Assembly: GCA_945883795.1 (NCBI GenBank)
Contig: CAMCYC010000008.1
Coordinates: forward strand, 1 to 58,392
Source of the DNA: Sulfurimonas crateris
GTDB lineage: Bacteria > Campylobacterota > Campylobacteria > Campylobacterales > Sulfurimonadaceae
DNA length: 58,392 nt
Reading direction: 5' to 3'
The notes below the pieces were generated by a model. It saw only the letters and a list, made by a program, of their open reading frames with translations, did no database searches and was not told the DNA's origin. Each line of letters starts with the position of its first letter. Position 1 is the stretch's first letter. Below are positions 1 to 58,392 of this stretch, one piece after another. The position numbers and the translations under genes are program-made.

Positions 1-37
1 TTATGTTCGTTGTGTCAGGGCAGGACAGTAACTTTGA
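1..37 (+). repeat. 37-bp direct repeat, left copy
   Basis: Identical to 58177-58213, about 58 kb away in the same orientation. It covers the C-terminal codons and stop of a DUF1566-type gene. Both copies are followed, after a short divergent stretch, by TTGCTCTT, so the relatedness extends slightly past the exact repeat. Upstream extent is unknown because the window begins inside the repeat. Confidence 0.9.
2..31 (+). CDS. 3' end of a DUF1566-type protein (partial)
   Basis: The first bases read in frame as YVRCVRAGQ followed by a stop. This is the same C-terminus as the complete DUF1566 protein that ends at 58207. Positions 1-37 match 58177-58213 base for base, which takes in the stop codon and 6 nt beyond it. 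The remainder of the gene lies left of the window, so whether this is an expressed paralogue, a variable repeat or a non-coding template repeat of a DGR-like system cannot be decided here. Confidence 0.6.
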   Translation, partial: YVRCVRAGQ

Positions 38-312
38 TTTTTGCTCTTTTTCTCTCGTTCCCACGGTCTTCGTGGAAACCATCGCCATTCATGGTGGTGA
101 TGAAAGCGGAAATATGCTAAACTTTCATTTGACGAAAACCAAGTCAAAATGTTTTTATTCAAAACAATTCAAATGCGGTAGGAACTACCGTTTAAGCTTC
201 TTAATATCGTAACAATAGTTAGGAGTTTCTAGGAAGCTCTGTCATTTATGGCGGTGCAGTTCACTTTGGATACAATTTTATTGGTAAAAAAATTAAAAAA
301 TTGGAGATAAGA
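38..312. other. Non-coding stretch rich in small hairpins
   Basis: No convincing gene is present. Several inverted repeats lie in series: 57-65 with 71-79 (one mismatch, loop GTCTT), 85-88 with 91-94 extended imperfectly, CGGTAG/CTACCG around 177-191, and AGCTTC near 197 with GAAGCT near 232. The first resembles the short REP-type hairpins with a CCACG/CGTGG stem seen in many genomes. The stretch may be a 3' UTR, a REP-like cluster or a structured RNA downstream of the repeat. The end carries a GGAG ribosome-binding site for the next gene. Confidence 0.4.
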
Positions 313-32504: not shown

Positions 32505-32580
32505 TGGCAGGCGTGGAGGGATTCGAACCCCCAACACCCGGATTTGGAATCCGGTGCTCTACCATTGGAGCTACACGCCT
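32505..32580 (-). tRNA. tRNA-Trp (CCA anticodon)
   Basis: A full cloverleaf on the minus strand: acceptor AGGCGTG/CACGCCT, D-arm with TAGCTC, anticodon loop TTCCAAA with anticodon CCA, T-loop GGTTCGAATCC, and an encoded 3' CCA. It lies between rpmG and secE, with a terminator hairpin touching its 5' end. Confidence 0.97.
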
Positions 32581-32605
32581 AAAAAAAACCAGCAAAAGCT
32601 GGTTT
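32581..32605 (-). terminator. Terminator between rpmG and tRNA-Trp
   Basis: Stem AAACCAGC (32586-32593) with GCTGGTTT (32598-32605), AAAA loop on the plus strand, followed on the minus transcript by eight U ending exactly at the first base of tRNA-Trp. It begins 10 nt after the rpmG stop. Confidence 0.8.
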
Positions 32606-32614
32606 AAAACTTTA

Positions 32615-32767
32615 CTATAACTTCATCTCTTTATGAACAGTATGCTCACGACAGAATTTACAATATTTTTTTACTGAAAATTTTTCAGTATGTGTCTTTT
32701 TATTTTTACTAGTGTGATAGTTACGACGAGTACACTTTTCACATCCTAGATGGATTGTTTCACGCAT
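32615..32767 (-). CDS. rpmG: 50S ribosomal protein L33
   Basis: A 50-residue zinc-ribbon-type ribosomal protein, translating as MRETIHLGCEKCTRRNYHTS and continuing to KKYCKFCREHTVHKEMKL. The two CxxC pairs (CEKC, CKFC) mark the zinc-binding C+ form. It lies between tuf and tRNA-Trp, as is usual in this group. Confidence 0.96.
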   Translation of the reverse strand: MRETIHLGCEKCTRRNYHTSKNKKTHTEKFSVKKYCKFCREHTVHKEMKL

Positions 32768-32805
32768 TTTCTTAACCTTTTATTTTGTAATTCGGATAAT
32801 CCGAA

Positions 32806-34005
32806 TTACGCAAGAATTTCAGCTACGACACCAGCACCAACAGTTCTTCCACCCTCACGAATAGCGAACTTAGTACCTTTTTCCATAGCAATTGGATGAA
32901 TTAATTCGACAGTAATACTTACATTATCACCAGGCATAACCATTTCAGTACCTTCTGGCAAAGTAATAGCACCAGTTACATCTGTAGTACGAACATAGAA
33001 TTGTGGACGATAGTTACTAAAGAAAGGTGTATGACGACCACCCTCATCTTTACTTAAAACATATATTTCAGCTGTAAATTTTGTATGTGGTGTAATTGTC
33101 TTTGGCTTACAAAGAACTTGACCACGCTGAACATCATCTTTACCGATACCACGAACAAGAATACCACAGTTATCACCTGCTTCACCTTGTGTCATCTCTT
33201 TACGGAACATCTCAATACCAGTAACTGTAGTAGTTTTTGTATCACGGATACCAACTATTTCAATACTATCACCAATCTTAACAAGTCCACGCTCAATACG
33301 ACCTGTTACAACTGTACCACGGCCAGAAATTGAAAATACATCTTCAACTGGCATTAAAAAATCTCTATCTATTTCACGAACTGGTTGAGGAATATAATCA
33401 TCAACAGTTTTCATTAGTTTTTGAATTTTAGCTGACCATTCGCCTAAAACACCAGTTTTTGCTTCTGCAAGAGCCAGAGTAGCAGAACCTGTAGTGATTG
33501 GAGTATCGTCACCTGGAAAATCATACATATCTAAAAGTTCACGAATTTCCATTTCAACTAGTTCTAATAATTCTTCATCGTCAACCATATCTTCTTTGTT
33601 CATGAAAACAACAATATATGGAACACCAACTTGTTTCGAAAGAAGAATATGCTCACGAGTTTGTGGCATCGGACCATCAGCTGCAGAAACAACAAGAATA
33701 GCACCATCCATTTGCGCAGCACCAGTAATCATGTTTTTAACATAATCCGCATGGCCTGGACAGTCTACGTGTGCATAGTGACGCTTATCTGTTTCGTATT
33801 CAACATGTGAAGTTGAAATAGTAATACCGCGTTCTCTTTCTTCAGGTGCATTATCGATTGCATCATAGTCCATCAGTTTTGCACCGTTTGTTACTGCAAG
33901 TACTGCTGTAATAGCTGCTGTTAAAGTAGTCTTGCCATGGTCAACGTGACCAATTGTTCCTATGTTTACATGTGGCTTATTACGTTCAAACTTTTCTTTT
34001 GCCAT
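32806..34005 (-). CDS. tuf: Elongation factor Tu
   Basis: GTPase that delivers aminoacyl-tRNA to the ribosome. The 399 residues include [15 protein letters not shown] (P-loop), the switch I region [22 protein letters not shown] and NKEDM, plus domains II and III ending in [15 protein letters not shown] (CGGAGGACACA) precedes the start. It follows tRNA-Thr(GGT) directly, in the classical tRNA-tuf arrangement. Confidence 0.98.
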
Positions 34006-34102
34006 TGTGTCCTCCGACTTTAATTATGAATTGAAATGGAATTATATCCAAAAATCATTCAATTATTGCTTAAGTAAAATCAATTTCATAAATTGCTACT
34101 AA

Positions 34103-34177
34103 TGGAGCTCACGAGCGGATTTGAACCGCCGGCCTCTTCCTTACCAAGGAAGTGCTCTACCCCTGAGCCACGAGAGC
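34103..34177 (-). tRNA. tRNA-Thr (GGT anticodon)
   Basis: Minus-strand cloverleaf with anticodon loop TTGGTAA, T-loop GGTTCAAATCC and encoded CCA. The acceptor stem has one T-T opposition at the fifth pair, otherwise complete. It is the last tRNA before tuf and has its own likely promoter directly upstream. Confidence 0.95.
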
Positions 34178-34189
34178 ATTGATGTTTAA

Positions 34190-34218
34190 TTTATAATAAA
34201 CACAAATAAAATTGTAAA
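34190..34218 (-). promoter_or_regulatory. Sigma-70-type promoter for tRNA-Thr(GGT)-tuf
   Basis: On the minus strand TTTACA (34213-34218), a 17-nt spacer and TATAAA (34190-34195) precede tRNA-Thr by about 12 nt. The spacing is ideal. It would give tuf and rpmG transcription independent of the upstream tRNA promoter. Confidence 0.65.
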
Positions 34219-34359
34219 ATAAGCAATAATTGAATAATTCTTTTTTTAGTGAAATATTAGTTGTTTAGGATAGATAAAAGCTATATAGATACTTAAAAAA
34301 TATTATATATTATGAAGTTAATTTTATTGAAATTGTACTTCAGCTTCCAGAATTTCCAA

Positions 34360-34436
34360 TGGAGCGGGTGAAGGGACTCGAACCCTCGACCCTCAGCTTG
34401 GAAGGCTGACGCTCTAGCCGACTGAGCTACGCCCGC
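34360..34436 (-). tRNA. tRNA-Gly (TCC anticodon)
   Basis: Minus-strand cloverleaf: acceptor GCGGGCG with a closing strand ending CCCGC, anticodon loop CTTCCAA with TCC, T-loop GGTTCGAGTCC and encoded CCA. Third of the Thr-Tyr-Gly group. Confidence 0.96.
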
Positions 34437-34450
34437 ATGTGTCATTGAAA

Positions 34451-34535
34451 TGGTGGTGAGAAGAGGATTCGAACCTCTGAACCCGTAGGGAGCGGATTTA
34501 CAGTCCACCGTCGTTGGCCACTTGACTATCTCACC
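34451..34535 (-). tRNA. tRNA-Tyr (GTA anticodon)
   Basis: An 85-nt class II tRNA with a long variable arm, anticodon GTA in ACTGTAAATC, T-loop GGTTCGAATCC and encoded CCA. It lies 14 nt before tRNA-Gly on the transcript. Confidence 0.97.
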
Positions 34536-34593
34536 ATGTGCATATAAAATGCATAATCTGGTCTAACACTGTTTCTAATATTCTCGCATTCAA

Positions 34594-34670
34594 TGGTGCC
34601 GACACGAGGATTTGAACCCCGGGCCTGCTGATTACAAATCAGCTGCTCTAGCCAACTGAGCTATGTCGGC
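34594..34670 (-). tRNA. tRNA-Thr (TGT anticodon)
   Basis: Minus-strand cloverleaf with acceptor GCCGACA/TGTCGGC, anticodon TGT in ATTTGTAATC, T-loop GGTTCAAATCC and encoded CCA. It is the first gene after the consensus promoter at 34688-34716. Confidence 0.97.
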
Positions 34671-57580: not shown

Positions 57581-58207
57581 ATGAGTAACACAAACCTCCC
57601 AGCTCTGCGACCAGAGACTCAAGCAATTTTGGGTAAATCAAAAAGGCTTTTAGCCATTACTAATAAAATTCTTGCCAACAAAGTGGTAAAAAAAACACCG
57701 CCACCACCAAAGGTTGTGCATAAAATTAGCACCGACCAAAACAAAGCAATAGAGTTTAGCGACAATATAGAAGCTTGGATAGATACCGATACAGGTTTAA
57801 TGTGGGAAGTTAAAACAAAAGAAAATATTGGACATTACTATGTTTGGAGCAAAGAATATATTGAAAAAGCTTATTTTCCAGAAAAATTAACCGATGATGT
57901 GAAAGATGCTTTTTCGTATGCCCAGAAGTTAAATGCAAACAACCATGCAGGATTTAGTGATTGGAGAGTTCCAACACACAAAGAACTAAAAACAGTTCTT
58001 ACAAAAGAGAAAAATAACGGTTATTATATAAAATATCCTTTATCAAAAAATACCGCAAATACCGCCTCTAGCCATTACTGGAGTTCTACTACCGATGCGA
58101 GCTATACCGGCGGTGCGTGGATTGTCTACTTCAGCAATGGCACTCAGGACAACTTCGGCAATAAGACGGGTAGCAATTATGTTCGTTGTGTCAGGGCAGG
58201 ACAGTAA
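57581..58207 (+). CDS. DUF1566-domain protein with a DGR-like variable C-terminus
   Basis: A 208-residue protein. Residues 1-35 (LPALRPETQAILGKSKRLLA) form a short helical lead, followed by a Pro/Lys linker. The DUF1566 domain (about 58-207) starts IEAWIDTDTGLMWEV and continues with FSDWRVPTHKELKTVL. The last 45 residues (YWSSTTDASYTGGAWIVYFS, then NYVRCVRAGQ) have the C-type-lectin-like end that diversity-generating retroelements vary. The DNA here is about half G+C against about a third in the first part, and many codons are NNC or NNT, as expected from adenine mutagenesis of AAC/AAT. No reverse transcriptase lies in this window, so activity is unproven. Confidence 0.75.
   Translation: MSNTNLPALRPETQAILGKSKRLLAITNKILANKVVKKTPPPPKVVHKISTDQNKAIEFSDNIEAWIDTDTGLMWEVKTKENIGHYYVWSKEYIEKAYFPEKLTDDVKDAFSYAQKLNANNHAGFSDWRVPTHKELKTVLTKEKNNGYYIKYPLSKNTANTASSHYWSSTTDASYTGGAWIVYFSNGTQDNFGNKTGSNYVRCVRAGQ
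58070..58207 (+). repeat. Candidate variable repeat (VR) of a DGR-like system
   Basis: The C-terminal coding segment of the DUF1566 gene differs in base composition from its own 5' part and from flanking DNA. The last 31 bp, through the stop codon, are shared exactly with the window's left edge, which would serve as the invariant homing end. Boundaries on the 5' side are estimated from the composition change. Confidence 0.5.
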
Positions 58208-58213
58208 CTTTGA
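58177..58213 (+). repeat. 37-bp direct repeat, right copy
   Basis: Identical to 1-37. It includes the last codons of the DUF1566 gene and six bases beyond its stop. Confidence 0.9.
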
Positions 58214-58249: not shown

Positions 58250-58392
58250 ATGCACCAAATATTAAAAAGATTAGAACTGATAAAAACAAGCATTGCTATA
58301 GAAGATATAGAGATTATTGAGTTGCAAATTGCTAAATTAAGCGGTTTGGATGGTGAGGTTGCAAATATTTTGCAAATGCTCAAAAATCAAGA
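58250..58392 (+). CDS. Start of an unrecognised gene after the DUF1566 gene (partial)
   Basis: AAGGAAAAAAATG gives a good ribosome-binding site and start. The visible 47 residues, MHQILKRLELIKTSIAIEDI then EIIELQIAKLSGLDGEVANI, are a strongly helical, Leu/Ile-rich, amphipathic segment that continues beyond the window. No family could be assigned. It is 42 nt downstream of the DUF1566 stop on the same strand and is probably co-transcribed. Confidence 0.65.
   Translation, partial: MHQILKRLELIKTSIAIEDIEIIELQIAKLSGLDGEVANILQMLKNQ

Follow-up and report, generated by a model that had tools for sequence, protein, structure and literature searches.

The window analysed here is one complete contig (G000:C8, 58,392 bp) of the draft genome of Sulfurimonas crateris, which totals 2.41 Mb in 126 contigs with a marker-based completeness of 99.85%. 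The contig encodes rpsL and EF-G and is therefore probably chromosomal; a cluster of five tRNA genes lies on its minus strand at 32508-34670. At its right end there is a short gene for a C-type-lectin-like protein of the Lcl_C (DUF1566) family, followed at once by the start of another gene, and the last 37 bp of the lectin-gene tail reappear at the very beginning of the contig. The features of the two ends are as follows:

57581-58207, plus strand: Lcl_C (DUF1566, C-type-lectin-like) gene of 208 aa, probable DGR-type target (PF07603, E 3.4e-26)
57581-57715, plus strand: N-terminal adaptor-like segment, residues 1-45, ...SKRLLAITNKILANK; 41-53% identity to the N-termini of LRR and WD40 proteins
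57710-58060, plus strand: Lcl_C body, residues 44-160; closest relatives L110, L111 and L097 (35-41%, BLAST)
58070-58176, plus strand: putative variable-repeat (VR) core, differing from the consensus of template repeats (TRs), at TR-agreed columns, solely at adenines
58177-58213, plus strand: IMH-like constant 3′ end, ending ..GGACAGTAACTTTGA, identical to 1-37
58250-58392, plus strand: start of a predicted J-domain partner gene, which runs off the contig; 50% identity to residues 12-60 of a 308-aa partner, E 6.6e-6
1-37, plus strand: 3′ end of another putative VR of this type, from a gene truncated by the contig edge; ends GGACAG
61-75, plus strand: hairpin CCACG-GTCTT-CGTGG (DNA fold), 23 bp past the left IMH-like end

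The Pfam match agrees with the lectin-like DUF1566 assignment made in the first-pass annotation, which had also described a tail with a G+C content of about one half in an AT-rich gene and an enrichment of NNC/NNT codons in that tail. Both descriptions were borne out by measurement: G+C is 0.496 in the last 45 codons of 57581-58207, as compared with 0.342 in the gene body and 0.329 in the window, a tail value reached by just 0.35% of 135-bp windows, and NNC/NNT codons make up 80% of the 35 variable codons versus 47% in the body. DUF1566 and DGRs reportedly occur together in published work. An AlphaFold model of the target, based on a 12-row alignment, was too poor for use (pLDDT 43), and the lectin fold is otherwise taken from the Lcl_C match.

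The constant end extends beyond the stop codon of the target gene and is identical to the first 37 bp of the window at 37/37 positions, with a chance expectation of about 1e-11. The exact recurrence that had been noticed earlier is thus real, but the suggestion of two cassette copies 58 kb apart has to be modified: one full copy lies near the right end, while the other is a 3′ end cut by the left edge of the contig, where it sits because the window is the whole contig. A circular-overlap artefact was considered and rejected, as the sequence past the 37 bp differs between the two places. The string TATGTTCGTTGTGT of the IMH-like end is common to VRs and TRs of relatives, and so is a 14-bp core. 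Both window copies end in GGACAG, which is the VR form in most lineages (the exception being G341, with GGAGAG in its VRs), so that neither copy looks like a TR. The 70 bp folded as DNA at the left copy gave -7.1 kcal/mol (z -2.0), and hairpins are likewise found after many VRs; no clear hairpin was detected downstream of the right copy (DNA fold, z +0.7). In BPP-1, efficient homing needs a hairpin downstream of the VR (PMC3240598). Among the complete DGRs described below, the hairpin is weak or missing after several VRs as well.

A DNA search for similar tails in 60 relatives revealed clusters of them in one genome of the same genus (G008) and one of the same order (G047), in each case with a reverse transcriptase (RT) between them. 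These are complete DGRs, each starting with a large Lcl_C target, which is followed by Avd, TR, RT (RVT_1) and a second Lcl_C target; the Avd is bAvd-like, and its Pfam matches stay below the curated cut-off, in some cases by little. Differences between VR and TR fall on TR adenines in 18/19, 20/21, 10/11 and 19/20 cases; the VRs end in GGACAA and the TRs in GGAGAA. We also observed decayed DGRs that have kept a TR and/or VR next to a fragmentary RT at L150 (G313:C6), L149 (G341:C41), L142 (G150:C58) and L151 (G317:C127), with a GIY-YIG endonuclease-like frame located in G313 between the TR and the second target.

For comparison with the window tail, a consensus was built from ten TRs of relatives in the order, this genome's own TR not being among them, and columns were kept where at least 75% of TRs agree. 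The tail differs from this consensus at 14/39 adenine columns and at 0/53 non-adenine columns (p 1.2e-6, which, like the other p-values, is indicative because the tails are related); the check proposed in the first-pass annotation, whether differences fall on template adenines, was thus answered positively with the templates of relatives. In a larger alignment the counts are 15/41 and 0/53, placing the window tail among the cleanest of all tails. The VRs of complete DGRs show the same adenine pattern, while the non-DGR Lcl_C tails of L110, L111 and L137 differ at adenine and non-adenine columns alike. With single TRs as the template, the adenine bias is seen for most of them (e.g. G008, p 4e-4), and it vanishes when VRs are substituted for TRs. 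The window VR is longer by one codon than every TR seen. Two other tails were noted in the same genome. A more diverged VR-like Lcl_C tail on contig C41 (14811-16900, L053) differs at 16/39 adenine and 3/53 non-adenine columns and has an IMH-like end GGACAA with a hairpin after it; as this end is a different one, the tail probably represents a separate DGR lineage. The tail on C97, with 21/42 adenine and 9/54 non-adenine differences, is more decayed. Judging by its sequence, the window gene is very probably a DGR-type target, with a C-type-lectin-like domain ending in a VR and an IMH-like constant end.

No RT or template repeat had been seen inside the window at first reading, and the same holds for the entire draft, the smallest contig of which is 3022 bp. 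On contigs of at least about 3 kb we found no RVT_1 domain, no match to DGR RTs by tblastn down to E 10 and no TR copy; the sole Avd match in the same contigs, inside a 312-aa frame, is insignificant (E 0.04). A search for an RT and an Avd-type gene near the copies, as had been suggested, accordingly yielded no RT and, at best, this Avd match. Of the original proposal of a candidate DGR target, the DGR-type VR with its adenine-limited divergence is supported, but these results for RVT_1, RT, TR and Avd lend no support to a DGR that is currently active in the genome. Since the draft has no contigs below about 3 kb and both VR copies are at contig edges, the lack of an RT does not refute the DGR reading.

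We give an even chance to the explanation that a DGR is present but was missed, with Avd, TR and RT on contigs of less than 3 kb, split off at the VR/TR repeats and then discarded, and with a target that is still live. The left edge of the contig falls exactly within the VR end, and the right edge lies 180 bp beyond the other VR; in G008, Avd, TR and RT span merely about 2 kb between two VRs, and a repeat-flanked core of this size would be lost in just such an assembly. The complete lack of non-adenine differences also speaks for a live target, as it indicates little neutral decay. The high marker-based completeness of the draft, and the fact that DGRs of other drafts were retained on longer contigs, weigh against such a loss.

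Rather short of even, in our estimate, is the probability that the gene is a fossil target, its tail once diversified or acquired from a DGR target, with RT and TR since lost and an ordinary lectin-like gene left behind. Such an outcome agrees with the failure to find RT, TR or a convincing Avd in the draft, with the missing hairpin after the window VR, and with the state of DGRs in the order, where RTs reduced to fragments are common (G313, G150, G341, G317:C127 and L133); the VR most similar to that of the window (77%) is the one in G317:C127, whose Avd and RT are remnants. It is harder to reconcile with the 0/53 non-adenine differences, as opposed to 9/54 in the decayed-looking C97 tail of the same genome, and the search on which it draws was made in a draft from which contigs under 3 kb are missing. 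Ordinary recombination among Lcl_C paralogues, with a retroelement never involved, could account for 37 bp being identical at two places and for the RT not being found in the draft, but would not confine differences to template adenines, and we regard it as very improbable. Recombination that grafted an already diversified VR is possible, and is compatible with our main reading of the gene as a DGR-type target.

Separate BLAST searches with the three parts of the gene revealed different affinities. The LRR and WD40 proteins with N-termini matching residues 1-45 come from Methylococcales and Campylobacterota, where they adjoin a J-domain gene. The closest relatives of the body, L110, L111 and L097, are Lcl_C genes with tails that do not resemble a VR, according to the adenine test for L110 and L111 and by eye for L097; the latter has an N-terminal segment that looks similar by eye but did not appear among the BLAST matches to residues 1-45. 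The variable-repeat core is up to 65% identical at the amino acid level to VRs of complete DGRs (BLAST). These matches show the gene to be a mosaic, a new finding of this analysis, made up of a J-linked N-terminus, a body of the kind found in Lcl_C genes without a VR, and a DGR VR tail. It thus looks as if the tail had been added to a sensor gene from a different family.

The frame beginning at 58250, which is 71% identical over 34 aa to a partner in L067, is visible for its first 47 residues only, and the J domain itself would lie past the contig end; in relatives, the 308-aa partner carries a J domain (PF00226). The partner gene adjoins an LRR or WD40 adaptor gene in relatives, and the same layout is found in L059, L060 and L097; LRRs were assigned by Pfam in L059 and L060, and WD40 repeats and the LRRs of Campylobacterota were named by eye from the translations. 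Several LRR/WD40 genes with the same N-terminal segment stand beside J-domain genes at L060 (735-3985) and L059 (5222-6135) of a Methylococcales MAG and at L097-L099, and some of the J-domain genes at these loci are themselves fused to repeats. Sel1-like proteins of about 400 aa, encoded in a conserved neighbourhood in another family of the order (L073, L077 and L079), begin with a stretch that corresponds to the first 45-75 residues of the J partner; this part is possibly a separate domain.

No relatives of the target were found in phage records and viral contigs, and the viral contigs likewise contained no relative of the J partner. On plasmids, the target matched DUF1566 genes of conjugative plasmids, over residues 49-205 at best and without the N-terminal segment, and the plasmid J-domain matches were stand-alone annotated DnaJ genes. 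PADLOC gave no match. Among the genomes searched, none combines an RT, a VR and the J-domain partner, and the open-access literature yielded neither an account of a DGR with a J-domain partner nor one concerned specifically with the DGRs of Campylobacterota.

In comparison with known systems, the window gene resembles the C-type-lectin targets of BPP-1-type DGRs (PMC3240598) in that a lectin-like domain carries the VR at its C-terminal end, in the IMH-like end and the adenine-specific divergence, and in the presence of Avd-TR-RT in its relatives; it is unlike them in that no RT or TR was found in its genome on contigs of at least about 3 kb. The extra codon of its VR and a body different from that of the usual targets set it apart from the DGRs of its relatives. 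In the DGR-diversified sensors of putative conflict systems, FGE-type lectins are combined with MoxR/vWA/VMAP proteins, STAND NTPases or proteases as partners (Kaur 2020, PMC7159879; Dore 2024, PMC10907252); like them, the window has a variable domain with a predicted lectin fold, an N-terminal adaptor-like part and an adjoining partner gene, but the partner is a predicted J-domain protein, the variable domain is Lcl_C, and no known effector domain was seen. With the J-domain partner module of Methylococcales and Campylobacterota, the window shares the N-terminal segment and the start of the partner gene, although its other members have LRR or WD40 repeats, and the one with Lcl_C, L097, lacks a VR. 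To our knowledge, this module with LRR and WD40 adaptors has no name.

We propose that, in the past, an Avd-assisted reverse transcriptase made adenine-specific errors in copying a TR RNA, and that homing of the cDNA into the tail changed about a dozen codons in the part that binds the ligand; the tail would have been transferred to a gene of a different type. The N-terminal segment may tie the sensor domain, elsewhere LRR or WD40 and here Lcl_C, to the J-domain partner encoded alongside, with the diversified lectin domain serving as the ligand sensor of the adaptor-partner pair. Tentatively, the gene could be viewed as a DGR-diversified lectin sensor within an unnamed two-gene module, in which the J-domain partner is constant, the sensor slot is occupied by LRR, WD40 or Lcl_C, and one branch has been mutagenised by a retroelement. 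By analogy with other DGR-diversified sensors, for which such a function was proposed, a defence role of the target and its J-domain partner is conceivable, and we advance it with similar reserve.

In the BPP-1 target-transplant experiments, a DGR variable tail was grafted by design (PMC3240598); the mosaic described here suggests that natural processes, too, can attach such a tail to a gene from a different family. It further points to a J-domain-linked bacterial module with exchangeable sensor domains, a candidate for a role in defence, and, if an RT acts on the target, the J-domain protein would represent a new kind of partner for the known DGR-diversified putative conflict systems.
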